This document shows, piece by piece, positions 1 to 33,143 of a DNA stretch of 35,803 bases. This stretch comes from a virus. Position 1 is the stretch's first letter, and every line of letters begins with the position of its first letter. Both the position numbers and the translations under genes were made by a program. The notes under the pieces were generated by a model. It ran no database searches. It was not told the origin of the DNA and saw only the letters and a list, made by a program, of their open reading frames with translations. The stretch lies in IMG/VR virus record IMGVR_UViG_3300020281_000067, positions 1 to 35,803 of that record; one strand, written 5' to 3'.

Positions 1-3000
1 CAAACTTATGTGTATAATTACCACCAGTTTGAACAAGTGCTCTTTGAACTCCATTACTTGATGCAGATACAAATGTATGTGAGTAATTACCACCTGTTGT
101 AATTGCGTCAGCAGTAGCAGAAACAAATATATGATTAGATGTATTTGTAGAAGGTGTGCTTGCTAAAGTCTGAACAGTAATTGTGTCATCAGTGACATCA
201 GTGATTGTGACTGCAGTGTTATAGTTAGGATCAGTAGTTCTAGGATATGAATGGTCTGTAGCATAATCATCTTGAGCACATCTGAATGTTATTGAGTTTG
301 TAGCAATCTTAACTGCAGTTCCTCTTCTTAAATTATGACGACCTATTGTAAGTGTCATGAATCCAGTTGTAGGATTATAATCAGCATGTGTAGGTGTGAA
401 CTTTCTTAATGGAGATTTACCAACGTTGATACTTAGTTTGTTATAATCAACATTGAATACTTCCATCCACTTACCACTGATAGGATCAGTAGAACGAGGA
501 TATGCTTTATTAGAACTATTACCATCCATTGAGCAACTAAATGTCACTGCACCATCTGCCAATTTAATTCTTTCGTACTCTTTAATTTGATGTCCATGCT
601 GTACAGCATTAGTCGATGCAGAAACAAATGTATGAGCAGATAGATCTGATATTGGAGTTCCGTCTCCATTTACATTGACTGTAATTGTAGTTGCAGTTTC
701 ATCAGTGACTGTTAGATCATAATTATACGCATAGTCATTACTACTTGCTCTTGGATATGTCTTCTGAGCAGTATTACCATCTAATGTGCATGTAAATGTA
801 ATTGAGTTAGGTTGAATTCTGACTGTATCACCAACTTTTAAAGTATGTGATCCAATAGTCAATACCATATCACCTGTAGTAGGATTGTAAGTAGCGTTAG
901 TTGGAGTAAAGTTAGTGGTTGGAAATGTCAATTCCATGACACCAGTTGTTGCATCATAAGTTGCACCATTAGGTGTGTACTGATGACTTACAACTCCAGA
1001 TAATGTATGAGTTGTTGTGTTGGAAGGTGTGTATCCATTAAGGACATTTATAGTGACAGAATTACTTGTAACAGCATCAATAGGAATTGCCTCAGCGACT
1101 GCAGGATCACCTTCTATAATTCCACCCTTAGTAGCAGATACAAATGTGTGAGTTGTTGTATTTGTAGAAGGAATCTTATCAAGTACTTGAACTGTAAATG
1201 TGGTTGTAGTTGGAATAGTTTCTACAAATAACCATCTATTACTTGCATAATCTGTAGATCTTGGATATGGGTGAAGTGTAGCATTATCATCTTCATTACA
1301 TGTAAATGTGAGAGATAGATCTTGGAACATAATTGGAGTTCCTACTCTAAATCCATGAGCAGCAGCAGTTGTGACTGTCATTATGCCAGTTACAGGATTG
1401 TAAGATGTACCAGTTGTAGCAGTATGTCTATCTTGTTCAGATCTAGGATATAAATGTTCTGTAGCATTACTATCTTGTGTACATGTAAAGACTAGAGAAT
1501 TAGGTGCTAACTTAATAGTTGAGTTTGCTTTACTTACACCACCAGATGTTGCACTTACAAATGTATGAGCAGTGACGTTAGTAGAAGGAATATTATCTAA
1601 AACCTGTACATCAAATGTGTCTGTTGTGACGTTGAAAATAGGAATCCACTTATTACTTACAGCGTCAGTAGATCTTGGGTAGTCATGGTTTGAAGCATTA
1701 CCATCTTGTGCACAAGTAAATCTTAATGAGTTATCTGCAATCTTAACTTTCTCACCATTAGAGAAGTTATGACCTGCAATAGTCAATGTCATGATACCTG
1801 TTGAAGGCACATAAACTGCATTTGTGACTGTATGAGTTGTTGGAGCTGGAAGACTATGATTTCCAATAGTTAACACAAGTGCACCTGTGGTAGCATTATA
1901 TGATCCTTGTCCAGTAGGTATATAAGCAACTGTTGGTGATTTACCAATATTAACTGTGATTGTATTGTTTCTCTTAACAATACTATGCTCAAGAGCAGAT
2001 ACAAATGTATGAACATATTGATCTGCAACAGCACCAATACCTACATTAACTTTTATTGTATTATCTGTTTTTTCTTCAATTCTTAACCATCTTTGTGCAG
2101 CAGGATCAGTCGCTCTAGGATAAGAGTGAGTAGTCTTATTACCATCTTTAGTGCATGCAAATGTTAGAGAATTTAATTCAATTCTAATCTCATCATCTGT
2201 TGTCAATCCATGATTAGCAATGGTGATGATCATGTCACCTGTTGTTGCGTCATAAATTGCATTTGTTGCAGTTAAAGTTGTACCGTTAGTCCAGATTGGA
2301 AGTGATGTATTATATCCAGGATCATCAGTTCTTGGATAAGAGTGTATAGTTTTAAAGTTATCTTGTGAACATGTAAATGATACTGCATCTTTGGAAAGTC
2401 TGAGTGTTTCTCCAGAACGAACCATAGAGTTAGGTAGTGCATACTGGAATGTATGAGTTGTAGTATTACTTGAAACACCTACGTTTACATCAAATGTATT
2501 TGTAGTGACATTGCTTATTGCTAACCACTTGTTGTAGTAAGGATCTGTAAGTCTAGGATATGGGTGATCTGTAGCATTACTATCTTGTGCACAAGTAAAG
2601 ACTAATGAATATGGATCAAACATTACTCTATCACCAACATAGAATCCATGATTAGCAATAGTAATTGTCATTGCTCCTGTTGATGGATTATAAGCAGCTC
2701 CTTCTGGGGTGTATTTCCAAGCAGTTCTTAAATCATTATCACCAATATCCATAGTCATGAATCCAGTCTGACCATTGTAAGTGGCATCAAGAACTGTGTA
2801 ATTTACAGTTGGTGATTTACCAACATTGATGCTAAAGTTATTAGCATCAACTCTGGTGACTTCCATCCAACCCTGTGCAGCTGGATCATCAGGACGAGGA
2901 TAAGATTGTGATACTGTATTACCATCTGATGTACATGTCATGGTAATAGAGTTTGGTTTCAACTTAATTCTATCACCAGTCTGAAGATTATGACCATTAG

Positions 3001-6000
3001 ATGTAATTCCTAAAACACCAGTGGTAGCAGTGTATGTTGCATTACTTGCAGTTATTTCACGAGGTGAAAGTAATCCATGATTGTTGCTAGTAAGAACCAT
3101 ATCACCAGTAGCAGGATTATATGTTGCACCTGTAGGAGTAAAGTTAACAGCAGATGGGTAATCAGAATCTTTTAGAGTTCCATCATATATCTGTGTAAAT
3201 GAATGACTTGTATCTTGAATATCCCAAGGAACGTTATTAATAACAAACTTAGATATTTTCTCTACAATTTCAGTTGCATATATCTCTTGTGGAACATCAC
3301 CTTCTATAGTTCCAGTTTGTATAGAAACTGGATTTGTTGTTCTGTTAACAAAAGATGCTGCTGTATTCCAAATATGACTATTACTACCATTACGAAGATC
3401 ATCTACTAATGCTTGTATAAGTGTTTCAAGTCTTGCTAATTGAACACCATCTCCACCTTTAACAGTATGTGCAGGGAATACCTGCTTCATAATATAAAGT
3501 GTTTCTGCTTTTATAAGTTCTTTGTTTATTAGAATATGATCTGCAGCGTTCAAGTATCTGTGTGTTCTACCAACGAATCCAGCTGGTGCACCAGTTGTAC
3601 GAGATGTTGCTAATATAGAATCATTATTAAATTCATCTCCAATAGCAGGAGTGACAAATCCAGACCAATCTTCTGTATATGTTTGACCGTTAGATCCATC
3701 AAAGTGAACTAATAATTTAGCATTTGTATCACCTTGGAAGATACCTGTAGGTGTAGTAAATGGTCCTGTATATCTGTTGCTATTAGATGCTCTAAATTCA
3801 TCAATATATCCTGTAAATCCATTGGCACCATTATAGTCCATACCAATTCTAATTGGTTTAGCAGCAAAGTTGCTACTATCAGTTCCAGTTCCTGCTTCAA
3901 CACCATTTACATATATCTTAGTTGTTGTAGAAGATCTAACAATTGCTATATGATACCATGTAGCATTATTAAGAGTAGTAGCACCAGATGTGACAAGATC
4001 TGATCCATTTACATTATAACGAATCTGAGCAGCTTCTAGATAGATTCTTGCAGCAACCTCAGTTGCATTTTCTCTTTGATCAACCAAGGTTGTAGTTCCA
4101 GTGATTGATGAAGAATCAGGATTGACCCAGAATTCTATAGTAAATGCACCAGTGCCCCAACCAAACTCAGTGCTAGAAGCAATGTTTACATAATCTCCTG
4201 TACCATCTAATAATAATGATGATCCACCATACTTAAATGAAGCAGTAGAGAGTTGTGCATTACCTGCAAATGTAATAGCATGTACATCTAAACCATTATA
4301 TTGACATCTACCAATCTTACCAAGATAAACAGTCTTTCTTGCTTGACTGTATCCAACAACTTCTGCTTTAGTTCCCTCTCCTTCTGCTAGAGAACCAATT
4401 CTAATATTTTGACCTGCTACAAAGAATCCATTTCCTTTTTGATTTGTAAATGTTAATTTACGTATCTTAGCATCCTCTGCTGCATTAAAATCTCCATTAG
4501 AATTACCGTAATCTATTTTGTAATTTCTAATATCCTCTCCTTCTGTTATTGCACCACTAGCATTATCATAAGGAATTATGTAGTTATTGATTTGTTCAGT
4601 GGAAGGGAAGTTTTCATTGAATGGTGTATTATTGTCTGTAAAGTCAACAATATTAACTTGAGAATTAGCAATGTTATCAAGAACAACGTTTGGATATGTC
4701 TGTGATGTAATTCTGTTGAATAGTAAACCAAAGAATGATGATCCTGGTGATATATTAACTTGACCAATAAACTCATTAGTTGTAGGATCTTGATATACAC
4801 TTGATGCAGTGACCTGTGCTACAACACCTGATTGTGCAGCAATAATATAGTCATTAAGTTGAATATCAAATAGACCAGGTGTAGACTGGTATGTACCTGC
4901 TGTCTTACTTAGAGTTAATTGATTTGTGACTGATATATCAGTACCATATACAGGAACATCTTCTTGATGTGAAACTGCAGTAGTACCATTTTGTGCTCTT
5001 ACTACAGTTAATGTTGTAGAATTGCTATTCTGTGTTATGACATCTACTCTTACAATTTCAGATCCAAACTGATAGTTCTTACCTGCTGTAAATGTTCCAG
5101 CTGGGACAACTTCATCAGCAGCAGTGTTATCAGTTCTATATGCTACTACTTCTATAGAAGTTGTAGATAAACCAACAGTATAACGAAGTTGAGCAAGAGG
5201 TGTTTCTTGACCTGTCTGTAAGTTAACTTGTTCAACTTTTGCAGTGTCTCCCTCAAAGTTAGAAACTTGCTCACCAAATATGAATAATCCACCACTAGCA
5301 ACAGTACCATTTACAGAATATACATTACCAGAGAATGCTCCTCCTCCTGCCAATGTTCCAGTAATAGTTTCATTTGTTTGGAATGTGCTTAGAGTAATAG
5401 TTCCAGTTACAGTAGTACCAACCACTCCAGTTACTATCATAGTAGAACCAGATGTTTGACCTGTTAAAACAGTACCTGCTGTGATATCTGCATTGTCTGG
5501 GAAGTTGCCAGTTGTTACTTGATCAATTACTATAGATACACTTCTTGTTGCAATATTAGCAGAGAATCCAGTAGCACTAACAGTTACTAACTCACCACCA
5601 CCTCCACCTGCAGTAGGTAGAATAAATGTTCCTTGAGTTATAAATCCAGTAACAGTATTACCAGTGACTTTGGTGACTGTTAGACGAGCATTAGATGAAG
5701 TACCTACAACAGTATTACCAACGCCAGGGAAAATACCACTAATATTACTAAAGTTAAGATCTACTGTCTGTATAAGGTTTATAGTTACATTTACATATTT
5801 TACACTAGCAGGAGGTTGTGGTGGTTCAACAAATACAATAGAGTCCTGTTGAATACTAAATGCAGTACCAGGTGTTTGTACAATACCATTTAAAACAATC
5901 ATTAACTGGTTTGCATTAGCAACAATATTAGTCTGATTAACTTGTAGTGGGAATGAAGTTCTTTCACCGTCAAATAGAGTTGATATATCATCAATTCTTT

Positions 6001-9000
6001 GTACAACAGATGTTAGAATATTCTCAGAAGAAGTTAATCGTTTCTGTCTGAACAATACTTCAGTATTATTAAACTCTGTGTATATTGGTTCAACAAGAGC
6101 AAAGTTTTGAATGTTAGGAACGATTGCTTCTTGTGCTAATTCAACAGACTTGGTTAGAGAGAAGAATGTTTCTTTATTAGGAATAAATCCATACTCATTT
6201 AAGTTAAGTTCACCAAATACTTTGAATGATGCAGGGTGAACGTTCTTAATAAGAATCTCTTTCCACTCACTAATAGATGTAGATGATTTAACAGCATATG
6301 AGAAATCTTGATAGTAGTAAGAGTCTTGAATCTTTTGAATAATCTCAGATGGTTTACCAACGTCATCAATAAACTGACCAGTAGTTCTAGTGATAGAACC
6401 AATCTCAAGAACACCACGAGCAATTTTAAGATCAGTAATAATACCAGAAGATTTAGATATAACACCAGTAATTCTTTGATTCTCTGAAAACTCTCCAGTG
6501 TAATCAACAATCTTAAGTACTCTAGGTCCTACCTGCCAACCTGCGTTAGTAGATACAAATCCTTGAGCAGTTGCAGTAGCAAGTGAATCACCTTGGTATA
6601 CAAGTTCTCCTTCTAAGAATGTTGATGTGATAACGTTTGCTTCAGCAGAACCACCGAATGATTCAGTCAATACTTGTTGACGACCTGTACCTGCGTTTGA
6701 GAACGCTAAAGCATCACCGAGTTCAGCGTTAGCAGGAGTAATAGCAAGTTTTAATTGATCTTCTTCTAGAGAGTTTGCAGTACCAGATATAGCATAGTAA
6801 GTTGTAGTACTATTCAATCTACCCACAGCACCAGATGCAAGAGGAAACTCAGCACCATCACCAGTGTCAACAACATTTAATGTGACTGCAGCACCATTTG
6901 CAATACCATGTGGGAAAGCGAATTGTAGTAATCCTAAGTCAAGGTTTACAACATAGTTGAATGAAGATCTTAGTGCAACGGTTGGAGTTGAAGAATATCC
7001 TGCACCAGGATCTTTAACAATAATAACATCTAATCTACCATTCTTAATTGTTGCTTCAGCAATAGCACCAGATCCTCCACCACCAGTGATAACAACAGCA
7101 GGTGCCTGTGAATATCCAGTACCTGGATCTGTAATGGTAATACTATCAAGTATACTTGTAGAAGTAAGCTGTGCGTTTATTGGGAAGGATATTTCAGGGC
7201 GTAATGTATAGTCATGTGGATAATCATAACCAAAGTTATTGTTCTTAAGTTTCTTAATCTTACCAACGTTAGTTCCAGAAGTAAAGATAGATGCTCCTGT
7301 ACCTACAGATGGTATGACAACTACTAACTCAGCACCAGATCCAGTTAATCCAGTTCCAAGTATGCCAGGTATAGCGTTAATATCAATAGTTGCAGTAGTA
7401 TAATTTTTACCTGGTGATGTAACAACTACATTACTGATTTGACCAGGAATTGTTGATCCTTCTGCATCAGTACCATCAGCAACCGTAATTTGTACAAATC
7501 CACCTTCACCATCACCACCGATAGGAACGCCACTATAAGTTCCAACTGCATATTCAGTACCTGGTGAATTGATCTGTACTCTTTCAATTTGTCTACTAGA
7601 TGTAATACCACTAACAATAGGCAACTTAGTGTAGAAACCACCAGGATTGACAATACGAATAGCACCAATAGAACCAACCGCTTTAGTAGAACTTGTCATA
7701 TAAGATGCTTGAGATATAGTCGCAGCTGCTTCAGGTTCATTAGCAAGTGGGAACTTAAGTATATCAGCACCTTTAGTAATAGTAGCACCTGCAACAGAAC
7801 TAATCTCAAATGTTCCGTTATATGGAGAATCTACAACATCAAGATAACTACCAGGTACCACTGGGCTGTTATCACCAGTTCTTGATGGATCGAAGTAATA
7901 TGATATATTTGTTACTATGTCTCTATCAACTTTAAGCTTTACTGTAGGAGTTGGTTGTCCACCACCAGTGACACCAGGTATACCTACTCTTTCTATAGAG
8001 TTAAATGAGTATTCAAGTTTGTATAAATTATCTTTTGCAAATGATAAGTTTCCACCCGCCATAGATGAATGACTAAGATCAAACAGATACTGATGACCAT
8101 AGTACATTTTTAATGTTGGTGATTTAACAAAAATACTTACATCAGATGCATTTGTAGCAGGAGCAGTAAGAGCTACCTGATCTAGTTTATATGTAAATTC
8201 TAAAGGACTAACGACTTTCTCTACAGCGAATGCACCATCATACTCATCATATGAGGTAGCCCCTATAGTTTGTGTTGGGTTTCCATCAACGTAAACCATA
8301 TCACCTTTAGATAGGTAATGGCTTGTATTTGTAATAACATACACTTCATCGCTATTTGCTACAGCAGTTGCTTGAAGAATCTTAGTTAGATTAGCAACTA
8401 GAGTAATTTTAAGAACACCTGTTAATCCAGATATTGTTGCTTGAGAGTAATCAGAGTTCCATGTAATTGCACCAGAACCTATAGTGACTACAGATCCAAC
8501 AATATATGCAGATGATCCAGAAACTTGATCTATTCTTACAGAGTAATCTTCATCAGCATATGGTTTGAATGTTGCAAATGAGTCTAGATTACCTGTAGTA
8601 GAGTTAATAGTAAACTTAGCATCTCCATTACCACCAGTAATTACTACTTCATCTCCAACTTTATATCCTGATCCTGCAGCTCCACCAGAATCTATAGAAA
8701 CACTTTGAATAACACCACCAGATGCAGTATAGTCAACTAATAATCCAGATGCTTCACCATTGGTTGTAGTTGTTGCAACACTATCACCTGTATTAGGGTA
8801 TCCTGTACCTGCTGCACTTAAAGCAATAGTTGCAGGTATATCTGCAACAGTACCATCTAAATCAAAACCGTCTAGGTTAATAATAAATGTACCAGGTGTT
8901 TGATTATTAATCTCTGCAAAAGTATAATTTTGTATTTCATTTATATCGTTAGGTATCGCACCAGTAATACCATAATTACTCTGCTCATTAAATTGTTCAG

Positions 9001-12000
9001 TAGATAATTGACCAGTGTTTAGATCATTACTCCAAGGATTATTATTAACTGCTAGGTAAACCTTATTATTCTCGACATCTGTTCTAATAATATAACCACT
9101 ATTAACAAATTGACCAGAATCATTCCTTAATACTAATTTAGAACCAACAGCAAAGTTAAATGACTGGTTGATAGTTAGTTCCTGTACGTTATCAAGTTTA
9201 ATTGTAGGTGTAACTTTGAAGTAATATCTATCTTTAACAACTGCAGTGACTTTTAGTTTTTGTGAACCTGGTGAAGGAACAGTAGCAGTTCTAGAACTCC
9301 AAACGTCTTGAACATGAGTTATTGTCTCAGTGTCCTCAGTCATAGTTGTGGTGCTATCATCAAAGTCTAATGACTGATAACCTGCATCTCCAAGAGGGAA
9401 ACCATTTACGTTGATTGTAAGAGGAGAACCAATAACAGGAGTTACAGCAGTTCTTGTAAAACTTATACCAGTTGTAGGTTTCTTACCTTGATCTCCTAAT
9501 CTTGCTGCATCTGCATTCTTATCAACTTTAACACCATATCCTGCATATTCGATGTAATCATAACGACTCATTGCATCAGCAAACCAAGCATCATCAACCC
9601 AATCAAATGTAAGACCGTATGCACCTGCACTAGGTAATGCAATGATATCACTAGGAACTGTTGGTGTGACTGCTCTATTTCTAAATCTTAAATGATCAAT
9701 ATGATACTGACCCTGCTCATTAGATCTAAACTGACCTAGTGTACCATTTGCACCAGGTATATTACCAAAGTATAAATCTTTAGCACCTAGTGAAGTTCCT
9801 GATATAGTACCAGTAAGAACCTCAATTCCGTTTACATATGCCTTAAATGTATCACCACTCTTAGTGACTGCAATTGCTTGCCATGTATTATCAGCATATA
9901 AGTTTGTTTGTGATGATGTTAAAGAACTACCTGCAGAGTTAATACTTGTGGTACTATTAGTAATAGTCATGGTCAAAGGACCACTCGGACCTGCAGAACT
10001 CTGATCATAGTATAAATGTAGTCCACCAGTGGATACTGTAGCATCACCTATAGCAAAAAGTGTCTCTTTAGGCTGGGAAAATACATTACTGTTTGTTGCA
10101 TCCTTGAATATAAAGAATTCGATAGTCCAATCACCTGCAAGTTTCTGTCCTAAATCTGCAGCTGCAAATTTAATATTAGTATTAGTCCAAACACTTGGTG
10201 CTGCTGTTGTTGCACCTAATATCTTACCCCATCCACCAGAGGTATCATAACTAAATGAATCACTTGTGCTTGTGAGAGCAGCAGTATAATGTGTTGTAGT
10301 ATCTGTAAGAGCACTACCTGTAAATGGTATAACAAACTCGTTTCTATTCCAATATGTTTGACCAAATAAGTGAACATCACCAGATGTATCAGTATCTAAA
10401 GAATGAACCTGTAAACCTTCTATATTATCGGCAGTAAATTCTGTAGTGGTGTGGTTTTTAATTGTACCGTTATAACCAATCTTTAATGTATCAATAGTCT
10501 TATAATCATTAGTATTGTTATCTCTAGTGTACGCAATGTTAAGATCACCAAATAAGTCAATAGTAGACTTACCTGCACATGTTACATCTCTACCAGGTGT
10601 TAGATAACGATAGTTCCAAAGTAAAGCACCTGTGCTATCAATCTTACCAACCCAAATGCTATCTCTATCTGTATCATTTGCTTTTTGTCTACATGTAGCA
10701 TTAATATAGATTTCATTAAACTCATCTATAGCAATGCTAGTGTCTATCATCGAATGTAGAGAGTTTGCATAAGTATTAATCCACTCAACTTCAATAGCAT
10801 TAATTCCAATCTGACACTTACCAACAGCAACATCTATATCAGCTGAATTTACTGTAGATGCAGTCTCCATACAGAAGTAAACATCTTGTGTCCCTGTTGC
10901 TGAGTTGTAATTACAAATAATATCGGTAATTCTTTCAGATTTATTTTGAGAAGCAAATTTTCTCTTAATAGCAAAATTACCTGATGTATCAATAGATGCT
11001 ATAAACGCATCATCAGGGTTTATAGAGTTTGTATTTGTGTATCCACCGATTATATAACGAGTATCACTATATTTCTTAATTATTGATATATTATCAGCAC
11101 GAGTACTACCAGAGATACCTGCATATGCTTTTTGGAAAGCAAGTGTTGCACTTAGACCATTTGCTGCCTGTGTGTACTTGCAAAGTATTATATCAGGATT
11201 ATATGCATTGAGGATACTGCTGTTTGGTTTATTAATACCAACAACCCATATATCATTACCATCAACAAATAAAGAATTGAATTCAGCGTAGTTTAACCCA
11301 CCAGAGAGTTCAAGAGTTTTTGACCATTCTTTAACACCAGTTGCTGATAATTTAGAGACGAATGCGACAACGTTTCCACTCGCATCTTTTGTTTTACCAC
11401 AGATGAATACTTCCTTGTTATCGTTGACTTTGACATCGTTGACTTTGACATAATTGTTATTATTGATGAATGATAGATAATAATCTGCTTTTTTGAAGAT
11501 CTGTGGATGTGAAAGTATAACTCTTGGATTAGTTGTATATCCAGAACCAGAGTTTACAATATTAACAGTATCAATAGAACCTACACTTGATACAACTGCT
11601 TCCAATTGACCATCTTGTCCAGAAGCACTATCAATAATAATAGTTGGAGGAATATCAGTATTGTATCCTGATCCAGTTTGTGTGATTTGTATCTCTTCTA
11701 TACCTCTATACTGACGAACAGCAAACTGTTTGTTAGTATTATCCATCACAGGTGTATAATCAACAAATATACTATCACCTGCAACTAAGTTGTGAGGATT
11801 AGCAGTTGTTAGGACACCAAAGTTATTACCACTTATACTTTCAAAGGTATATGCAGAAATTGTTTCTCCTTTAATACGAGAGATACGTGCAGAAGCACCA
11901 TCACCACCAGTTCCTGTATTATCAAAGACTAATCTATCATTTACCTGATATGATTGACCTGCGTTTTCAATAGTAAATCCAGTGACATTTGCATCTTCAA

Positions 12001-15000
12001 ATTTATTAGTTGTTTCTACTTCAATATCAACTTTTGAGTCAAATCTAACTTTAGGGAAGTAGTCAAAGAGTTGTAAAGGTGATTCTTCAAATAATTGACC
12101 TAGATTTGATTCTAGTTGCTCTTCAGCATCTATCTGTCCATCTCTATTAGTATCCTCTGGATCAAAGAGTAGAATTTCACCCGCTTCTGTTGTTAAAGCA
12201 TTTGTGGAAGCATTAGGTGCTCTTTCAACATCAATATCAACATTCTCATATGGATCACGATATCTTACAACACCCTCTGGAATATTTTGCTGTACAGCAC
12301 TTGTGCTTAAGTTCCAACTATCAACAACAGAGTTAAAACTAGGACCTAAGACATAAGGAAACTCTGGATTACCTGCCTCTGTAGCATCAATAGTCACAAA
12401 GTAGCAATATCTACCTGTAGGATAATCAGGTGTCTTACAGAATCTACCATTATACTGATCTAAATCACCAAGGTTAAAGATGTACTCATAGTCTTCAACA
12501 AAATTACCTGCTGCTTCATCAGCAAGTAGAGGACCTGCAGCTCTTACAGGACTTGGATTGGTATCACTCTGTACAAGAGCAGTCTTTAGTCTATATGAGG
12601 TTCTTAGTCTAGTAATAGCAGATGCTTGATCTGTAGGATCAGTATATCCGTAAGGACCATATATTGGGTTTCCATCAAATGCCCAACCAATGATAGGAGA
12701 GTGAGCTAACTGTGTTTCCTGTTCAGTAATAGTACCTGCAGTTGCTTCTTGTAAGTTATCACCAAGAATGAAACGTAATTTTTGTGGATTTGATAGGTGA
12801 GCATATTCACCACCGTACTGATTATTGTATCCTTCAAATACTCCACCCTTAGCAGAGTCTAATATTGATGTTGCTTGTAAGTTATATGTCCATTGGAATA
12901 CTGAAGGTGTAAAGATTGCACCTTGACCAACAGAGGTCATGTTAATAAGAGTAGTTCCTTGAACATATCCAATACCACGGTTGATAATAGTGATACTTGT
13001 TACTCTACCTGCGTTTTCACCATCAGTGTCTATGGTAGCACGAGCAACAGCACCAAATCCAACACCCTGAATACTAACTTCAGGTGCTGTAGTATATCCT
13101 GAACCTGCAGAAATGATAGCAATAGAAATGATTCTTCCATTCTGAACAATCGGCTGTGCCACTGCTCCTGAACCAGAAGATAGACTTACAGTAGGAGCAC
13201 TGGTATAAGAACTACCACCATTGGTAATATTAACAGTATTAATAGGACCTCTAACACTTGCAGTTCCCGCAGCTCCCGTTCCGCCTCCACCAACAATAGT
13301 AATTGAAGGTTGAGAAGTATAACCTGTACCACCAGAGTTGATCAAAATACGGCTTACAGCACCCTTTGTAATAATAGCAGTCGCTGCTGCTCCTGAACCG
13401 CCACCACCAACGATTGATACTAGAGGAGATGATGTGTATCCAGAACCTCCCTCTGTGACTGTGATCTCAGAGATAGAACCATTAACTATAACACTAGCAG
13501 CAGCACCAGTTCCCCCACCACCAGAAATAGTGATAACAGGAGGAGATGCAGCATCATAACCTTGTCCCGCATTAGTAATTGCAATGCTAGTAATAGCACC
13601 AAAGGTTTTACTCTGTGTTGACTTGTATGACCATACAGAAACACCATTTACCCATGTACCAATAGGACCTGAAGAAATAGTATTCTTTGTAGATATTGTA
13701 GTAGGTATTGCAGGGAATCTATTTAATTTACGTTGGTTGCCAGGTAAAAGAGCAGAACCAGGAAAAGGACCTATAGAATAGTTTGGTATACCAGTTGATG
13801 CAACGTAAGTATAATTGTCATTGAAGAATGAGTTCTGTATATTAGTAGTGTAAGGTCCTATTGCATTTAAAATAGTGCTAGTGTCAGACTTACCTTTGTT
13901 CAAGTCAACTGATACTAGAATATTACCTTGAGGTATAATTGATGCAGGTTGTGGTAGTGCATACTGGAATACTGTCTCACTATCTCTTGATGTGACAGTA
14001 AATGTACCATTGTAGATAATTGGGTTTGCACCATATACTGTAACCTGATCACCAACTAACAAACCATGATTATTTGCACAAGTCACAGTTGCGGATTGAT
14101 TATTTACACCTCCAAATGTAATACCACTAACAGTAATCAGTTTCTTAACGTTGTATAACCAAGTTGTTAGTAAAGGAGCTGTTCCAGTACCACCTAATTT
14201 AGAAACTGTTAATTTATCACCCTGTAAGTAATAAGAACCTGTATCAGTTAATGTTGTTTGTTGAGCATCAACAATACCAACAACATTCATCACAACTTCT
14301 TGTGGAGTTCCTTTATTAATGAATACTTGGAAGTTTGATGTGACTTCAGTAGCAGAATCCCAGTCCTCTACAACTCCGTTTACGGAACGAGTACACTCAA
14401 TAAACTGGTTAAGTGATTTTTCCTTGTATTGTACTAATTCTGCACCAGAACCTGTGCCAATAACAAACTCACCGTTTCTTTCTGGCCAACCAATGGTAGA
14501 GTCAACTGTAATGATTGAATCAGTTTGATTGAGAGGTTCAGCAAGTTTTGTCTTGTAGGGTACGGTAAACGTGCCACTAATAGTTTCTTCAGAGAGAACA
14601 AGTTCAAATATTTCTACTGTAGATGTTTTAATAGAGATATAGTTTTCAACTAACGCAGATGCTTGTTTTACATTGGAGTCTGCAATATCCGCTTCTTGTA
14701 TTAATAGACCGTCTTGAATATCTGTGGCAAGTCCAGAAACTTTAGTTGCTCTTAAAATAGTATCAATAGACCATGTTGCAGCAGATGGTTTGATAATCTG
14801 ATCTTTTGGATATGATATACTTACGGTTTCACCGTATAATAACTTGAATAGATACGCAATACTGAATGATGTACCCTTTGCGGAGTAAAAATCTTTAATA
14901 GTCTTGATTGCTGTACGAACATCAATCTTTGTATAGTCTAGTTCTGGTACATCAGGTAAGAACTGTTGTGTGTACTTGTCTAATAAACGTTTTACAAATA

Positions 15001-16984
15001 ATGCGTCAAGACATTTTACCTCTGTATCAATAGCACCTGCAGTAGCAGTAGTATTATTAGAAAATACTGCATTACCATCTTCCGTGTATTCTACGATACC
15101 AGATGCAGCACGTGCACATCCTGTAAACTGTGCTTTATTATATCCTTTACCTGATTGATTAACTTTAAATCCTGTGACCTCATTTAAACCTATTTCCGCA
15201 GATGCTTCTGCACTTGAAGGAGCCTGTATTACAACTGATGGAGGATTTGCAGCAGAATATCCAGTACCAAACGCAGTCACGTTAATATCTGTAATTGCAC
15301 CATTGAATATTGCAGCAGTTGCGGTAGCACCTGTACCACCTGCGTATGCTCCTGTACCATCTACACGTTTATCTACAATATAAACAGAAGGAACCTCATC
15401 ATATCCGCTTCCTCCGTCAAGTAAATCAATACGAATGACTCTTCCGTCTCCATCAACTACAGTTTCTAGAACTTGTGCACCAACAGGATCTACGATTGCT
15501 ACTCTTGGAACTGATGTATAACCTTGTCCTGCGTTAATTGTAGTAATAGATGCAATAGTTCCGTCTGCAGCAAGAACTGTTTGGAAAGATGCTCTGATTG
15601 GATTATTACCAGTTGGTTCATCAACATACACTGCAGGAGGGGTTGTATATCCAAATCCTGGATTAGTAATTGTTAAACCACCACTAATAGATCCACTAGA
15701 TAACGTCGGAGTGGCGACTGTAGCACCGCCAGGTTGTCGGAAAGTGATTCTAGGTGTAAATGTATATCCAGAACCTGATCCAACTAAATCTACCGCAGTG
15801 ACAGCTCCATTTGTCACTGTTGCTTTCATTGTTGCTTGTGTAGAACCTGTCTTTGTCGGAGACTCTATCTGAACAACAGGAGGGTTAGTATCACTATACC
15901 CTTTACCACCATCAAGTAAGGTGACGGACTTAACACCATTTACTAATGCTTGAGCAGCACCACCTGATCCTACAGTTGTGTTAATAGAAACTTTTGGTGG
16001 ATATTCAAATCTATAGTTGCTACCATTTACATTAGTTGAGATACCTGTAAGTTCACCATTATCATTTACTCTTGCAAAACCTTCCGCACCACTACCAAAA
16101 GAGGGTACAGGTGCTTCTATAGAGAATAGTGATAAGAATCTTCCGTTTGTAGGTGCGGTAGCAAATATAAAGTCTGCACCATCAACAAAATAATCTACTT
16201 TTGGTATTAATAGTCTTTGATCGTATATTGCGATTACATACTCATCTACAATTGGTTCATACTCTGCACCACCACGAGTTATTCTAAATTGTGTTTTACC
16301 TTCACCAAAAGAGTTTGATATATTATCTAATGCAACAATTTGATTCTCTACAAATCCATCTAGGTATGTGATAAAGGTGTTTATAGCATCATCAGAAGGA
16401 ATCTTTGTTCTAGGAGCAGTTGCAAAGGTAATAGTGGTTCCATTAACGCTATAGTCTGTACCAGGTGTCAATACCTTACCATATACAGATACTATCAAAT
16501 GCTGTGCACTTGGAGGTGCAATAGGATTGTCTTGAGATACTAGATTAAACTGAGTAGTAGTGCCATCGAAGAGATTGATAGGACTAAAAAGATTTACCCA
16601 CTTTAATTTTACCTGATCGTATGAAATACCTGGTGAAAGAGCGATGTTTGGAGAACTGGTTGTACTCTCATAGTAAATAACCTCATTACCTATGAGAATA
16701 GATCCAGACTCCTCTAAAAACTGGTTAATTGACTCTACAACGATTGTATCGCTAGTTTCATCTATTGCTTCTACTAATTTTGTCTTACCATCTAATATAC
16801 CTACGTCTAACCTATCAATATCAAGATATCCAAGAAAGTTGTTTAAAATATTCTGCCCAAGACCAGTCTTCTCTTGAGATTGATAGTAATACTCAAGAAA
16901 TCTATTAAAGAGTGGATAGTCTGACTCTATAAATTCGGGAGTCTGGGCAACAACTGCCTGTGAGACTTTATTGATATTTGTCAT
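1..16984 (-). CDS. Giant VrlC-like virion structural protein (partial, 3' end outside window)
   Basis: The frame opens at ATG 16984, behind the Shine-Dalgarno AAAGG and 9 nt after the gp6 stop. Read by eye, it has no stop down to position 2, giving at least 5,661 residues with the C-terminus missing. The N-terminus contains DYPLFNRFLEYYYQSQEK. Approximate landmarks by residue: GxGY Gly-rich repeats at 345-595, 1130-1310 and 3095-3330; a YHYH-type segment at 1426-1546 (GWAFDGNPIYGPYGY, then FPYVLGP); a propeller-like stretch at 1840-2195; LamG-like jelly rolls near 2230-2445 and 4240-4430; and H-x-Y-P-R modules from about 4690 to the edge. Cyanomyoviruses carry a very large structural protein called VrlC after gp25 and gp6, so a baseplate or tail-fibre-like adhesive role is inferred. 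A native split gene or an assembly fusion cannot be excluded. Confidence 0.85.
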   Translation of the reverse strand, partial: MTNINKVSQAVVAQTPEFIESDYPLFNRFLEYYYQSQEKTGLGQNILNNFLGYLDIDRLDVGILDGKTKLVEAIDETSDTIVVESINQFLEESGSILIGNEVIYYESTTSSPNIALSPGISYDQVKLKWVNLFSPINLFDGTTTQFNLVSQDNPIAPPSAQHLIVSVYGKVLTPGTDYSVNGTTITFATAPRTKIPSDDAINTFITYLDGFVENQIVALDNISNSFGEGKTQFRITRGGAEYEPIVDEYVIAIYDQRLLIPKVDYFVDGADFIFATAPTNGRFLSLFSIEAPVPSFGSGAEGFARVNDNGELTGISTNVNGSNYRFEYPPKVSINTTVGSGGAAQALVNGVKSVTLLDGGKGYSDTNPPVVQIESPTKTGSTQATMKATVTNGAVTAVDLVGSGSGYTFTPRITFRQPGGATVATPTLSSGSISGGLTITNPGFGYTTPPAVYVDEPTGNNPIRASFQTVLAADGTIASITTINAGQGYTSVPRVAIVDPVGAQVLETVVDGDGRVIRIDLLDGGSGYDEVPSVYIVDKRVDGTGAYAGGTGATATAAIFNGAITDINVTAFGTGYSAANPPSVVIQAPSSAEASAEIGLNEVTGFKVNQSGKGYNKAQFTGCARAASGIVEYTEDGNAVFSNNTTATAGAIDTEVKCLDALFVKRLLDKYTQQFLPDVPELDYTKIDVRTAIKTIKDFYSAKGTSFSIAYLFKLLYGETVSISYPKDQIIKPSAATWSIDTILRATKVSGLATDIQDGLLIQEADIADSNVKQASALVENYISIKTSTVEIFELVLSEETISGTFTVPYKTKLAEPLNQTDSIITVDSTIGWPERNGEFVIGTGSGAELVQYKEKSLNQFIECTRSVNGVVEDWDSATEVTSNFQVFINKGTPQEVVMNVVGIVDAQQTTLTDTGSYYLQGDKLTVSKLGGTGTAPLLTTWLYNVKKLITVSGITFGGVNNQSATVTCANNHGLLVGDQVTVYGANPIIYNGTFTVTSRDSETVFQYALPQPASIIPQGNILVSVDLNKGKSDTSTILNAIGPYTTNIQNSFFNDNYTYVASTGIPNYSIGPFPGSALLPGNQRKLNRFPAIPTTISTKNTISSGPIGTWVNGVSVWSYKSTQSKTFGAITSIAITNAGQGYDAASPPVITISGGGGTGAAASVIVNGSISEITVTEGGSGYTSSPLVSIVGGGGSGAAATAIITKGAVSRILINSGGTGYTSQPSITIVGGGGTGAAGTASVRGPINTVNITNGGSSYTSAPTVSLSSGSGAVAQPIVQNGRIISIAIISAGSGYTTAPEVSIQGVGFGAVARATIDTDGENAGRVTSITIINRGIGYVQGTTLINMTSVGQGAIFTPSVFQWTYNLQATSILDSAKGGVFEGYNNQYGGEYAHLSNPQKLRFILGDNLQEATAGTITEQETQLAHSPIIGWAFDGNPIYGPYGYTDPTDQASAITRLRTSYRLKTALVQSDTNPSPVRAAGPLLADEAAGNFVEDYEYIFNLGDLDQYNGRFCKTPDYPTGRYCYFVTIDATEAGNPEFPYVLGPSFNSVVDSWNLSTSAVQQNIPEGVVRYRDPYENVDIDVERAPNASTNALTTEAGEILLFDPEDTNRDGQIDAEEQLESNLGQLFEESPLQLFDYFPKVRFDSKVDIEVETTNKFEDANVTGFTIENAGQSYQVNDRLVFDNTGTGGDGASARISRIKGETISAYTFESISGNNFGVLTTANPHNLVAGDSIFVDYTPVMDNTNKQFAVRQYRGIEEIQITQTGSGYNTDIPPTIIIDSASGQDGQLEAVVSSVGSIDTVNIVNSGSGYTTNPRVILSHPQIFKKADYYLSFINNNNYVKVNDVKVNDNKEVFICGKTKDASGNVVAFVSKLSATGVKEWSKTLELSGGLNYAEFNSLFVDGNDIWVVGINKPNSSILNAYNPDIILCKYTQAANGLSATLAFQKAYAGISGSTRADNISIIKKYSDTRYIIGGYTNTNSINPDDAFIASIDTSGNFAIKRKFASQNKSERITDIICNYNSATGTQDVYFCMETASTVNSADIDVAVGKCQIGINAIEVEWINTYANSLHSMIDTSIAIDEFNEIYINATCRQKANDTDRDSIWVGKIDSTGALLWNYRYLTPGRDVTCAGKSTIDLFGDLNIAYTRDNNTNDYKTIDTLKIGYNGTIKNHTTTEFTADNIEGLQVHSLDTDTSGDVHLFGQTYWNRNEFVIPFTGSALTDTTTHYTAALTSTSDSFSYDTSGGWGKILGATTAAPSVWTNTNIKFAAADLGQKLAGDWTIEFFIFKDATNSNVFSQPKETLFAIGDATVSTGGLHLYYDQSSAGPSGPLTMTITNSTTSINSAGSSLTSSQTNLYADNTWQAIAVTKSGDTFKAYVNGIEVLTGTISGTSLGAKDLYFGNIPGANGTLGQFRSNEQGQYHIDHLRFRNRAVTPTVPSDIIALPSAGAYGLTFDWVDDAWFADAMSRYDYIEYAGYGVKVDKNADAARLGDQGKKPTTGISFTRTAVTPVIGSPLTINVNGFPLGDAGYQSLDFDDSTTTMTEDTETITHVQDVWSSRTATVPSPGSQKLKVTAVVKDRYYFKVTPTIKLDNVQELTINQSFNFAVGSKLVLRNDSGQFVNSGYIIRTDVENNKVYLAVNNNPWSNDLNTGQLSTEQFNEQSNYGITGAIPNDINEIQNYTFAEINNQTPGTFIINLDGFDLDGTVADIPATIALSAAGTGYPNTGDSVATTTTNGEASGLLVDYTASGGVIQSVSIDSGGAAGSGYKVGDEVVITGGNGDAKFTINSTTGNLDSFATFKPYADEDYSVRIDQVSGSSAYIVGSVVTIGSGAITWNSDYSQATISGLTGVLKITLVANLTKILQATAVANSDEVYVITNTSHYLSKGDMVYVDGNPTQTIGATSYDEYDGAFAVEKVVSPLEFTYKLDQVALTAPATNASDVSIFVKSPTLKMYYGHQYLFDLSHSSMAGGNLSFAKDNLYKLEYSFNSIERVGIPGVTGGGQPTPTVKLKVDRDIVTNISYYFDPSRTGDNSPVVPGSYLDVVDSPYNGTFEISSVAGATITKGADILKFPLANEPEAAATISQASYMTSSTKAVGSIGAIRIVNPGGFYTKLPIVSGITSSRQIERVQINSPGTEYAVGTYSGVPIGGDGEGGFVQITVADGTDAEGSTIPGQISNVVVTSPGKNYTTATIDINAIPGILGTGLTGSGAELVVVIPSVGTGASIFTSGTNVGKIKKLKNNNFGYDYPHDYTLRPEISFPINAQLTSTSILDSITITDPGTGYSQAPAVVITGGGGSGAIAEATIKNGRLDVIIVKDPGAGYSSTPTVALRSSFNYVVNLDLGLLQFAFPHGIANGAAVTLNVVDTGDGAEFPLASGAVGRLNSTTTYYAISGTANSLEEDQLKLAITPANAELGDALAFSNAGTGRQQVLTESFGGSAEANVITSTFLEGELVYQGDSLATATAQGFVSTNAGWQVGPRVLKIVDYTGEFSENQRITGVISKSSGIITDLKIARGVLEIGSITRTTGQFIDDVGKPSEIIQKIQDSYYYQDFSYAVKSSTSISEWKEILIKNVHPASFKVFGELNLNEYGFIPNKETFFSLTKSVELAQEAIVPNIQNFALVEPIYTEFNNTEVLFRQKRLTSSENILTSVVQRIDDISTLFDGERTSFPLQVNQTNIVANANQLMIVLNGIVQTPGTAFSIQQDSIVFVEPPQPPASVKYVNVTINLIQTVDLNFSNISGIFPGVGNTVVGTSSNARLTVTKVTGNTVTGFITQGTFILPTAGGGGGELVTVSATGFSANIATRSVSIVIDQVTTGNFPDNADITAGTVLTGQTSGSTMIVTGVVGTTVTGTITLSTFQTNETITGTLAGGGAFSGNVYSVNGTVASGGLFIFGEQVSNFEGDTAKVEQVNLQTGQETPLAQLRYTVGLSTTSIEVVAYRTDNTAADEVVPAGTFTAGKNYQFGSEIVRVDVITQNSNSTTLTVVRAQNGTTAVSHQEDVPVYGTDISVTNQLTLSKTAGTYQSTPGLFDIQLNDYIIAAQSGVVAQVTASSVYQDPTTNEFIGQVNISPGSSFFGLLFNRITSQTYPNVVLDNIANSQVNIVDFTDNNTPFNENFPSTEQINNYIIPYDNASGAITEGEDIRNYKIDYGNSNGDFNAAEDAKIRKLTFTNQKGNGFFVAGQNIRIGSLAEGEGTKAEVVGYSQARKTVYLGKIGRCQYNGLDVHAITFAGNAQLSTASFKYGGSSLLLDGTGDYVNIASSTEFGWGTGAFTIEFWVNPDSSSITGTTTLVDQRENATEVAARIYLEAAQIRYNVNGSDLVTSGATTLNNATWYHIAIVRSSTTTKIYVNGVEAGTGTDSSNFAAKPIRIGMDYNGANGFTGYIDEFRASNSNRYTGPFTTPTGIFQGDTNAKLLVHFDGSNGQTYTEDWSGFVTPAIGDEFNNDSILATSRTTGAPAGFVGRTHRYLNAADHILINKELIKAETLYIMKQVFPAHTVKGGDGVQLARLETLIQALVDDLRNGSNSHIWNTAASFVNRTTNPVSIQTGTIEGDVPQEIYATEIVEKISKFVINNVPWDIQDTSHSFTQIYDGTLKDSDYPSAVNFTPTGATYNPATGDMVLTSNNHGLLSPREITASNATYTATTGVLGITSNGHNLQTGDRIKLKPNSITMTCTSDGNTVSQSYPRPDDPAAQGWMEVTRVDANNFSINVGKSPTVNYTVLDATYNGQTGFMTMDIGDNDLRTAWKYTPEGAAYNPSTGAMTITIANHGFYVGDRVMFDPYSLVFTCAQDSNATDHPYPRLTDPYYNKWLAISNVTTNTFDVNVGVSSNTTTHTFQYALPNSMVRSGETLRLSKDAVSFTCSQDNFKTIHSYPRTDDPGYNTSLPIWTNGTTLTATNAIYDATTGDMIITIANHGLTTDDEIRIELNSLTFACTKDGNKTTHSYPRATDPAAQRWLRIEEKTDNTIKVNVGIGAVADQYVHTFVSALEHSIVKRNNTITVNIGKSPTVAYIPTGQGSYNATTGALVLTIGNHSLPAPTTHTVTNAVYVPSTGIMTLTIAGHNFSNGEKVKIADNSLRFTCAQDGNASNHDYPRSTDAVSNKWIPIFNVTTDTFDVQVLDNIPSTNVTAHTFVSATSGGVSKANSTIKLAPNSLVFTCTQDSNATEHLYPRSEQDRHTATTGTSYNPVTGIMTVTTAAAHGFRVGTPIMFQDLSLTFTCNEDDNATLHPYPRSTDYASNRWLFVETIPTTTTFTVQVLDKIPSTNTTTHTFVSATKGGIIEGDPAVAEAIPIDAVTSNSVTINVLNGYTPSNTTTHTLSGVVSHQYTPNGATYDATTGVMELTFPTTNFTPTNATYNPTTGDMVLTIGSHTLKVGDTVRIQPNSITFTCTLDGNTAQKTYPRASSNDYAYNYDLTVTDETATTITVNVNGDGTPISDLSAHTFVSASTNAVQHGHQIKEYERIKLADGAVTFSCSMDGNSSNKAYPRSTDPISGKWMEVFNVDYNKLSINVGKSPLRKFTPTHADYNPTTGFMTLTIGRHNLRRGTAVKIATNSITFRCAQDDYATDHSYPRTTDPNYNTAVTITDVTDDTITVQTLASTPSTNTSNHIFVSATADAITTGGNYSHTFVSASSNGVQRALVQTGGNYTHKF
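230..2910 (-). repeat. Tandem H-x-Y-P-R structural modules at the C-terminal side of the giant protein
   Basis: Within the giant frame a module of roughly 80-110 residues recurs. It runs: NSxTFTC, a D-x-N/D stretch, H-x-YPR-x-TDP, a W or other aromatic, VxVG or VxVL, then THTFVSA. The YPR triplet is encoded near 240, 497, 752, 1260, 1443, 1677, 2114, 2334, 2553 and 2896, so at least ten copies are present and more may lie beyond the left edge. Copies are diverged and partly interleaved with shorter 'YNPTTGxMxLTIGxH' units. The pattern suits a beta-rich fibre built by internal duplication. Confidence 0.85.
13030..13600 (-). repeat. Gly-rich GxGY repeat block in the giant protein
   Basis: About five to six units of about 40 residues run in tandem, each of the form GxGY-TS-x-P-x-V-x-I-x-GGGGxGAxA followed by a short beta stretch. 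The same unit recurs singly elsewhere in the frame, for example around 15200-15950, 11550-11690 and 7000-7150. The regular alternation of short beta strands and glycine turns suggests a repetitive beta-structure. Confidence 0.8.
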
Positions 16985-30218: not shown

Positions 30219-30247
30219 ATTATAGCATAAAAAAATCCCCCTGTGTA
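30219..30247 (-). promoter_or_regulatory. Terminator-embedded promoter for the helicase
   Basis: On the minus strand TATAAT (30219-30224) starts four bases after the U-tract of the terminator. The 17-bp-spaced hexamer TACACA (30242-30247) is exactly the six-base loop of that terminator. The helicase ATG is about 20 nt downstream. Confidence 0.6.
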
Positions 30248-30254
30248 GGGGGAT
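30229..30254 (-). terminator. Rho-independent terminator of the R-M operon
   Basis: The minus strand has the stem ATCCCCC/GGGGGAT (arms 30248-30254 and 30235-30241), a 6-nt loop and seven T residues. It separates the methyltransferase operon from the helicase. Confidence 0.88.
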
Positions 30255-30483: not shown

Positions 30484-31440
30484 TTAATATAACAGGTCTG
30501 CGAGAGGATTAGTGGGGCTATGTGCAACCTTTTCAACTGGCACACGTTGGTCTATCAAATTACCATATTCTTCATGCAACTCACATCCGATATAATCTCT
30601 ACCTAATTGCTTGGCAACCATAGCAGTTGTACCACTACCCATAAATGGGTCTAATACTATATCTCCCTTCTTACTCCCTGCCAGTACACAAGGTGTAATT
30701 AAGTCAGGTGGGAATACAGCAAAATGACTTCCTTTATATGGTTTATTTGTTATTGACCAAACATCACGTTTATTTTTCCTGTCATAAGACTTGGTAAGAC
30801 CACTATGAGGAGATAACCCACTCCCACTATTATGGTACTTACCATTTGTGCGGTTCCTTGTCCCCCAATCTTGCTTAACTGGTTCTTTGATTGCTTCATT
30901 GTCATAATAATACTTTTTGTTTTTGGATAATAAAAATATGTACTCATGTGATTTAGTACATCTATCTTTTACGGACTCTGGCATTGGATTAGGTTTATGC
31001 CAGATAATATCCTGACGTAGATACCATCCGTCCGATCTCATTGCAAATGCAAACATCCAAGGGATGCCAATTAAATCTTTTTCTTTTAATCCATCTAATT
31101 TATTACCACGTTTATTACATTGTGTTGGTAGGTCTTGATTAGTTTTAGATACTGATTGTTTAGGATATGATTGACCTTTTCCTGGTCTATAATTATAATA
31201 ACTATCCCCTAAGTTAACCCATAGAGTACCATCATCAGTTAATACATTTCTAACTTCTTTGAATACATTTACCAGTTGATCTATAAACTCCTCTGGTGTA
31301 TTCTCTTGTCCTATTTGATTCTCTTCATTACCATAGTTCCTTAATCCATAGTAAGGTGGAGAAGTTATACAAGTTCTTGCCTGTTCATCAAATTGTTTGA
31401 GAGTGTCTCTGCAATCTCCATATAATATTGTATTTCTCAT
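30484..31440 (-). CDS. DNA methyltransferase, beta-class, TSPPY motif (N4-cytosine or N6-adenine)
   Basis: A 318-aa AdoMet-dependent DNA methylase of the N4/N6 family (COG0863 type). Catalytic motif IV TSPPY is at residues 26-30. AdoMet motif I, DPFMGSGTT, is at 264-272 near the C-terminus. This IV-before-I order defines the beta class. WHKPNPMP and KRDVWSI are further family marks. SPPY is commonest in m4C enzymes, but base specificity cannot be settled by eye. I start at ATG 31440, which overlaps the upstream TGA as ATGA and has GGAGAAAG before it. An in-frame start eight codons earlier is less likely. It is the last gene of a nuclease-methylase-methylase operon and ends in tandem stops. 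In phages such enzymes act in modification or self-protection. Confidence 0.88.
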   Translation of the reverse strand: MRNTILYGDCRDTLKQFDEQARTCITSPPYYGLRNYGNEENQIGQENTPEEFIDQLVNVFKEVRNVLTDDGTLWVNLGDSYYNYRPGKGQSYPKQSVSKTNQDLPTQCNKRGNKLDGLKEKDLIGIPWMFAFAMRSDGWYLRQDIIWHKPNPMPESVKDRCTKSHEYIFLLSKNKKYYYDNEAIKEPVKQDWGTRNRTNGKYHNSGSGLSPHSGLTKSYDRKNKRDVWSITNKPYKGSHFAVFPPDLITPCVLAGSKKGDIVLDPFMGSGTTAMVAKQLGRDYIGCELHEEYGNLIDQRVPVEKVAHSPTNPLADLLY

Positions 31441-32363
31441 AGTATTACTTTCTCCAATAACCATCTTACTTCCTTGAATGATATTCTCTTACGATACTTA
31501 CCACTATTTTGTAGTGATTTAAAACTTGTTAGATAGAAATCATTTGTTTTCTCTCTGTATTCTCTTAATGCTTGATTGAACAATGGAATATGTTTATCTC
31601 TAAGATAAGAACATTCAATAGGAAATATATTTCTATTAGTTGTTTTACACTTGCCAAATGGGTCTGAAAGATTCTTACGATCTTTTTCACTCCATTTCCT
31701 TAGATGTATATTATCTCCATCTATTCTATCAATACCATTAATAATATACTCACTAAAATTAGGTGGATTGAATACTACAGGAAAATTAGTTGGTGTTGGT
31801 ATATCATTTTTATTAGTTGATATGCTTTTACCATTGATGTATAGTTTAGTTTTTAGACATGACTCTGGTATAAAATATCCAACTCCTGCGGGATTATCTG
31901 TGTCTGAAAATAGTTTCATATCAAATTTATCCCATGCAAATAATCTATCCTTAAATAGATTCTGATTCCAAAATGTTGAGGGTATAATTGCTGCAACATA
32001 ATCACAATTATCTAACATTAATTGTAAACAATCGAGGTATAAATCTTCATGCTTTGCAATTACTGATAACCTTTTTCTTCTTATTACTGTCTTTGCTAAG
32101 TATGGTGGATTAGTAATACATACTTGATAATCTTTAGGAAAATCTTTTATAGTATCTCTTAACTCTACATTAAAATGTTGAGGGTCAATATCATATCCTA
32201 CCCATGCTGCATCTATAAAATTAAATAGATTCCCTGCACCTGCAAATGGTTCTAATATTGGTTCATCTTTAGGTACTAAATCATACCATGATTTAAAAGC
32301 ATCTGAATTATTAAAAGGGTCAACAGTTGTATAATATTGACCTAATAATTGTTTAGTTTGCAT
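31437..32363 (-). CDS. DNA adenine methyltransferase, NPPY motif
   Basis: A 308-aa protein opening MQTKQLLGQYYTT, as in many Type II N6-adenine methylases. Motif I, EPFAGAGN, is at 38-45, an acidic motif II (YDID) near 57-60, and NPPY motif IV at 85-88. The I-before-IV order sets it apart from its partner. The C-terminal half, with many basic and aromatic residues (WSEKDRKNLSDPFGKC), would be the target recognition region. It abuts the candidate nuclease gene (TAG then ATG) and overlaps the second methylase by 4 nt. Together with the nuclease it looks like a Type II system that modifies two different strands or bases. Confidence 0.85.
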   Translation of the reverse strand: MQTKQLLGQYYTTVDPFNNSDAFKSWYDLVPKDEPILEPFAGAGNLFNFIDAAWVGYDIDPQHFNVELRDTIKDFPKDYQVCITNPPYLAKTVIRRKRLSVIAKHEDLYLDCLQLMLDNCDYVAAIIPSTFWNQNLFKDRLFAWDKFDMKLFSDTDNPAGVGYFIPESCLKTKLYINGKSISTNKNDIPTPTNFPVVFNPPNFSEYIINGIDRIDGDNIHLRKWSEKDRKNLSDPFGKCKTTNRNIFPIECSYLRDKHIPLFNQALREYREKTNDFYLTSFKSLQNSGKYRKRISFKEVRWLLEKVIL

Positions 32364-33095
32364 CTAATAGATTAATCTCTTTTGTAATTCTACATGATTA
32401 ACAACCCAAAGATTTCCCTGTGGATTGTCAAACTCTTCCTTCAGTGCATTATACTCCTTTTCTATGTCTGTGTCAACTAAAGCAATGTAAATTAAATCTT
32501 TTCTTTCTGATATATCTCTTCCCCACTCTAACCATCTTTTTTCTTCTTGAAATACATTTCCTTGATGTCCACCTGCTGTACCTCCATGTCCTAAACAATA
32601 CTTATGACTTCCCCATGCAATTAATTTACCATCTTTCTTAACTTCAAAATCAATAGTTTTAACATCATTAACTGTATTACCAAATTTCTTTTTATATAAT
32701 GTTTTAGGATATGTCTTACCATCCTTTGCAGGTCTTAAAAAATTATTGGGTAATCCTTCTACTCTGTATCCATAGTTTTTTACAACTTGATCTATTCCAT
32801 TGAGTGTAAATACTTCATCCATACCACTCTGTTTTGATGACATCTTAGCAAGTACTGATGCCATTTCCATTGCAATAAAACTATTACCTTGACTATTCAT
32901 AAAGTAATCTCTCTCAAGACAATTATGATATTCTAATTGTCTAGCTAGTTGAGTTTCATTGATATACTCTTTGATGGGTTCTCTATCTAATATTCCTTCT
33001 CTTAAAATCTTTGCAATAGTTTTTATTGTGTTTGTTTGTCTTTGTGATCTTAAATTTGGTGTGTCAAATTCAAATAATGGTGGTCTAATTTTCAT
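32364..33095 (-). CDS. Candidate Type II restriction endonuclease (PD-(D/E)XK-like)
   Basis: A 243-aa protein with no family I can name. Around residues 144-153 it reads ND-VKTI-DFEVKK, so D144 or D149 with E151 and K153 could form a PD-(D/E)XK site. After it comes a Cys/His/Gly-rich stretch SHKYCLGHGGTAGGHQGN (163-180). The C-terminus has WGRDISERKDLIYIALVDTD, a hydrophobic strand as in the restriction-enzyme core. It is the first gene of an operon with two DNA methylases and is the usual size for a restriction subunit. Promoter and terminator flank the three genes. The nuclease call rests on context plus one weak motif. An accessory DNA-binding protein is the main alternative. No strong ribosome binding site precedes the ATG. 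Confidence 0.55.
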   Translation of the reverse strand: MKIRPPLFEFDTPNLRSQRQTNTIKTIAKILREGILDREPIKEYINETQLARQLEYHNCLERDYFMNSQGNSFIAMEMASVLAKMSSKQSGMDEVFTLNGIDQVVKNYGYRVEGLPNNFLRPAKDGKTYPKTLYKKKFGNTVNDVKTIDFEVKKDGKLIAWGSHKYCLGHGGTAGGHQGNVFQEEKRWLEWGRDISERKDLIYIALVDTDIEKEYNALKEEFDNPQGNLWVVNHVELQKRLIY

Positions 33096-33115: not shown

Positions 33116-33143
33116 ATTATACCATAAAAAAGACCCCTGTAAA
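33116..33143 (-). promoter_or_regulatory. Terminator-embedded promoter of the R-M operon
   Basis: On the minus strand TTTACA (33138-33143), a 16-bp spacer and TATAAT (33116-33121). The -35 hexamer covers the terminator loop, and the -10 begins four bases after the U-tract. The nuclease gene starts about 20 nt downstream. Confidence 0.65.

Follow-up and report, generated by a model that had tools for sequence, protein, structure and literature searches.

A predicted type II restriction-modification pair in a lytic T4-like marine cyanophage

Results

Gene content of the locus

The stretch of DNA analysed here, referred to as the window, is a virus record of 35.8 kb and represents a fragment of the genome of a lytic T4-like marine cyanophage (cyanomyovirus) close to Prochlorococcus phage P-SSM3, to which it is nearly identical over the 9 kb compared (97.6% identity). 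Three genes follow each other on the minus strand. X (32364..33095, 243 aa, phrog_18366) encodes a putative type II restriction endonuclease with a permuted PD...K...E site, M1 (31437..32363, 308 aa, phrog_18657) an M.TaqI-like gamma-class N6-adenine DNA methyltransferase with a TNPPY motif, and M2 (30484..31464, 326 aa, T4-GC 38 'dam') a TSPPY methylase of the N6_N4_Mtase family. The TAG of X abuts the ATG of M1, and M2, if counted from its first ATG, shares 28 nt with M1. Since most M2 homologs begin aligning at Met9 (31440), this is the more likely true start, and it would leave a 4-nt ATGA overlap with M1. The abutting or overlapping arrangement of the three genes given in the original prediction is real, but its reading of them as one phage restriction-modification (R-M) unit stands only in part: a nuclease encoded together with a methylase is supported by the predicted fold of X, by its invariant residues and by the near-obligate pairing of X with M1, whereas M2 as a member, a catalytic E151/K153 and a sole promoter do not hold. 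Elsewhere in the window, a single minus-strand open frame of >5,660 codons (2-16984) runs off the window and matches virion structural/baseplate families (phrog_701) as well as Laminin_G_3 and YHYH domains. A search for structured RNAs and tRNAs across the window returned none.

X belongs to a labelled family of phage proteins

Over its full length (residues 1-243), X matches the profile of phrog_18366, 'restriction endonuclease II', with an E-value of 1e-121, and the same name has already been given in RefSeq to X in P-SSM3, P-SSM4, S-RSM4, ACG-2014e, ACG-2014i and S-H38. These proteins and X belong to the same family, but the RefSeq and PHROGs records are annotation only, and active site, partner and internal promoter are unstated there. 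Our search of the open literature found no paper describing a cyanophage X-M1 system, which is already labelled in databases yet apparently undescribed in the open papers searched. Sequence searches with X against Pfam, NCBIfam, PADLOC and the PDB gave nothing usable and no match to any solved nuclease; the best PDB matches, to HIV gp41 helices, were dismissed as chance. A search for plasmid-borne relatives yielded one weak match at chance level. The dN/dS of X is 0.14-0.26, indicating purifying selection and hence a maintained protein, and together with its conservation in dozens of phage contigs this argues against a chance ORF.

Predicted fold of X

The AlphaFold2 model of X, built with 22 sequences (pLDDT 87.5), contains a PD-(D/E)xK core. 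Its elements are helix 91-108, strands 110-114, 150-154 and 157-167, helix 179-195 and, towards the C-terminus, strand 202-209, helix 212-222 and strand 229-232; D149 begins one core strand, K165 belongs to the next strand and E184 to the helix after it. In structural comparisons, the closest solved structure is BstEII (Z 7.7, rmsd 5.3, 189 residues), followed by AgeI (Z 7.3), Bse634I (7.1) and PspGI (7.1), with BsaWI, Cfr10I, NgoMIV, PfoI and SgrAI further down near the top among other nucleases, although Z values of 6-8 are modest and can also be reached by unrelated folds. The nearest solved structures are mostly restriction enzymes. Foldseek gave no match of the model to the PDB at E<=0.001. 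Because the Z values are modest and the Foldseek search came back empty, we place weight on the agreement between the list of similar folds and the invariant residues; taken together, X is predicted to have a restriction nuclease fold with a complete active site, at Z values below 8. Separately, the model matches a BFVD entry for a 280-aa viral protein, M1HMH0 (E 3.8e-7, TM 0.57, 13% identity).

A predicted permuted active site in X

In an alignment of 18 X homologs, with identities down to 15%, the only invariant residues are E94, D149, K165, G175, Q178, E184 and D208. Among these, E94 (codon at 32814..32816, minus strand) is located in the first core helix, in a position analogous to E70 of NgoMIV (PMC6344858). 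D149 (32649..32651, minus) stands at the start of core strand 150-154, K165 (32601..32603, minus) within core strand 157-167, and E184 (32544..32546, minus) in helix 179-195, which follows the lysine strand. The order of residues in the alignments, D...(S/F)xK...x14...E, had pointed to a permuted site of the NgoMIV/Cfr10I type before the fold search was made, and the invariant E94, D149, K165 and E184 correspond to the permuted 'PD...K...E' site found in CCGG-family enzymes. On the basis of the alignment and the model, the catalytic site of X is likely to be D149/K165/E184, probably together with E94. A different D/ExK site, E151-V-K153 (32637..32645, minus), had been proposed in the original prediction. 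It is unconserved in the X family, being present in the window X and a few close relatives but lost in other clades (IDGVI--NG), and on its poor conservation across the X homologs we reject it as the catalytic pair.

The permuted site in CCGG-family enzymes has been described as PDX21-53KX12-13E (PMC4652773), with an additional helix glutamate (E70 in NgoMIV; PMC6344858). X shares with this family (NgoMIV, Cfr10I, Bse634I, AgeI, BsaWI, SgrAI, PspGI) the PD-(D/E)xK core, the order helix Glu ... Asp ... Lys ... Glu (PMC4652773, PMC6344858) and the lack of an acidic residue two positions before the lysine. There are clear differences as well. The D-to-K spacing is 15 residues in the window X rather than 21-53, and K and E are separated by 14 residues in most homologs and by 18 in the window X, compared to 12-13. 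At the start of the helix that follows the lysine strand, where R-(D/E)R would read CCGG, the alignment of X shows GGxQxN with an invariant glutamine instead, and there is no match at the sequence level. Given the different spacing and the missing R-(D/E)R, we do not file X as a member of the CCGG family; it probably works like a CCGG-family enzyme on another site.

M1 is a predicted complete methylase and the regular partner of X

M1 is modelled (pLDDT 91.5) as a complete M.TaqI-like N6-adenine methylase with the NPPY motif. Compared with M.TaqI, M.BseCI and CamA, the model gives Z values of 14-15 over ~260 residues, so that the fold extends over the full length of the protein. The likeness to M.TaqI and M.BseCI includes the target-recognition domain in addition to the NPPY motif, but M1 is short (308 aa) and only ~14% identical to these enzymes. 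Between the window and P-SSM4, M1 differs most in residues 161-245, and this segment is likely to be the variable target-recognition segment.

X and M1 share the same 16 phage records, and the pair is linked in every contig with readable context. Among 36 X-bearing IMG/VR contigs, M1 is directly downstream of X in 24 and one gene away in 9 (33/36); in the remaining 3, the sequence ends near X or just past an inserted gene. A putative endonuclease gene thus lies next to a methylase gene, as expected of a type II R-M system. Searching from M1 revealed strongly diverged X copies adjoining it, and in one contig (L075) a diverged X of 175 aa was recognised by eye via the D..K-x14-E pattern. The pair also extends to a MAG from the Euryarchaeota (G001), in which an X homolog is directly followed by an NPPY methylase and adjoins a hydrolase gene, and the same MAG has a second X homolog at a contig end (the two loci are L044:154-894 and L046:1039-3320). 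When 390 genomes of this archaeal phylum were surveyed, this MAG remained the only one with a clear X. M1 homologs without a detectable X occur in several distant contigs (L085, L087, L089, L092), and M1 therefore does not require X.

In L010, the sequence resumes with M1 after the inserted gene. Different phages have three unrelated extra genes (phrog_2615, phrog_33124 and an unassigned 409-aa gene) inserted at one and the same position between X and M1 (L010:4735-5805, L004:5729-6766, L017:893-1933, L003:5694-6806, L012:4720-5949). By eye, NGRHRY/GNHRYM stretches in the phrog_33124 and 409-aa inserts resemble ParB-like domains. Downstream of X-M1 in the distant phage contig L041 (4001-7507) lies a gene for a 577-aa protein that carries a GHKL-type ATPase domain (PF13589).

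The distribution of M2 is very different. M2-like genes are found in 216 phage records, mostly without X; in P-RSM4 and P-SSM7, M2 is located near the helicase with neither X nor M1 alongside, and conversely most X-M1 pairs are without an adjacent M2 (S-RSM4, ACG-2014e, ACG-2014i, S-H38). On this distribution we reject M2 as an essential partner of X and see no support for the proposal that it is an R-M component; M2 is probably a widespread orphan-type neighbour outside the core X-M1 pair. The ~230 bases between M2 and the downstream terminator (30484-30235, minus) gave no Rfam or tRNA match, and by eye contain a short start-less frame, VADTESEVIRMTKQIQLAVGTTRIRI.

A conserved promoter-like site within X

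The cassette had been described as lying behind one promoter and before one terminator, and both are present: a promoter-like site upstream of X (33116..33143, minus; TTTACA-16-TATAAT with a TG preceding the second hexamer, 11/12), the first hexamer of which overlaps a terminator hairpin (33149-33132), and an intrinsic-terminator-like hairpin downstream (30235..30254, minus). However, M1 is also preceded by a perfect site inside X (32448..32476, minus). This site, TTGACA-17-TATAAT, is a 12/12 match to sigma-70 promoters, and lies 85 nt before the M1 start; with spacers of 15-19 allowed, the window contains just one other exact 12/12 match. It is encoded by the codons for V/I-D-T ... Y-N of X, and 13 of the 14 distinct X sequences having this peptide keep the exact promoter, in homologs with ~35% protein identity. 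The codon of D208 is GAC in 12/12, against a background GAC use of 20%, and among the other conserved Asp columns of X seven are mostly GAT and two are mixed (5/12); these counts come from related sequences, so that a Fisher value computed without the two mixed columns overstates the significance, but the contrast in GAC use is clear nonetheless. The X genes of the S-RSM4 / ACG-2014e clade are without the site, and the internal promoter is therefore not universal. We infer that this putative promoter, conserved by codon choice, lets M1 be expressed separately.

X is more diverged than M1, M2 and the helicase

Between the window and P-SSM4, dS is 0.89 for X, 0.34 for M1, 0.15 for M2 and 0.09 for the helicase, and the sequence upstream of X is likewise highly diverged. 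The high dS of X and the divergence of M1 residues 161-245 may mark a change of specificity.

Discussion

The computational evidence makes it highly probable that, in X and M1, a lytic T4-like cyanophage carries a type II restriction-modification pair. M1 would methylate adenine in a short site and so protect virion DNA, and X, via its predicted PD-(D/E)xK site (D149...K165...E184, probably with E94), would cut the same site when unmethylated; we infer both the cleavage and the matching specificity. After infection, probably early, M1 would be made from two promoters, the upstream one and its own conserved sigma-70 promoter within X, so that the phage DNA stays methylated. X would meanwhile attack unmethylated DNA in the cell, and the unmethylated DNA of a co-infecting phage would be exposed too.

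Other readings of the genes themselves fit the data less well. X could be a nuclease that acts in repair or recombination, or it could bind DNA as a catalytically inactive partner of M1, and the fold similarity to Can2, RecU and EndoMS, with Z values only somewhat lower or equal, is in line with this. The near-obligate pairing with a TaqI-like methylase, the fast divergence of X relative to M1, the invariant E/D/K/E residues and a match list rich in restriction enzymes all speak against it, and we regard such a role as improbable. Slightly more improbable still is a single asymmetric-site R-M system made up of X, M1 and M2 with two methylases. In Ronodorvirus, M2 does come after M1 with overlapping reading frames, but the general lack of an adjoining M2 next to X-M1, and the many phages with M2 but no X-M1, where M2 lies near the helicase in those inspected, argue for the two-gene pair.

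A separate question is what the predicted X-M1 pair is used for. An attack on host or rival phage DNA, as suggested in the original prediction, is plausible. Our ranking puts host DNA breakdown first, exclusion of rivals second and selfish maintenance third. The first choice follows from the analogy with chloroviruses: there a restriction enzyme gene lies next to a methylase gene, and the role ascribed to them is the breakdown of host DNA rather than exclusion (PMC7019647). Chloroviruses such as PBCV-1 resemble the window phage in carrying these adjoining genes, but they differ in having a eukaryotic algal host and in packaging the enzyme in the virion, and no sequence relation is seen. By this analogy, breakdown of the host chromosome comes close to an even chance of being the main use of X. 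The pair might instead serve mainly in superinfection exclusion, with X destroying the DNA of co-infecting phages that lack M1. The patchy presence of X and M1 (many cyanomyoviruses have M2 but not the pair) fits this idea, as does the greater divergence of X and part of M1, relative to M2 and the helicase, as for a changing specificity cassette. Against it are the strong divergence of the flank upstream of X and the chlorovirus enzymes, which are thought not to cause mutual exclusion (PMC7019647), leaving exclusion as a possible but doubtful main use. Maintenance as a selfish, homing-endonuclease-like cassette, in which progeny losing the pair would be cut in mixed infections, seems unlikely. 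The pair recurs in settings that have no relation to each other, among them distant phage contigs and an archaeal MAG, and unrelated genes have repeatedly been inserted between X and M1; both observations are consistent with such a cassette. Its conservation within Ronodorvirus and the purifying selection acting on X would suit a useful gene as well, however.

With a conserved promoter inside X, methylation could run ahead of cutting by simple means. We tentatively propose, at somewhat less than even confidence, that X stands for a restriction endonuclease family as yet without a name. Its members would have a permuted site of the CCGG type but a different recognition helix (GGxQxN) and would pair, in archaea as well as in lytic phages, with M.TaqI-like methylases; the promoter embedded in the endonuclease gene would allow protection to come before the host chromosome is attacked. 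Because P-SSM3 and P-SSM4 are named isolates, grown on Prochlorococcus NATL2A, the prediction is testable on known phages, and new specificities may be found among the endonucleases of the X family. Restriction enzymes usually have phages as their targets. A complete R-M pair in a lytic cyanophage would reverse this role, and could explain part of the host DNA breakdown or of the competition between phages in abundant marine cyanobacteria.
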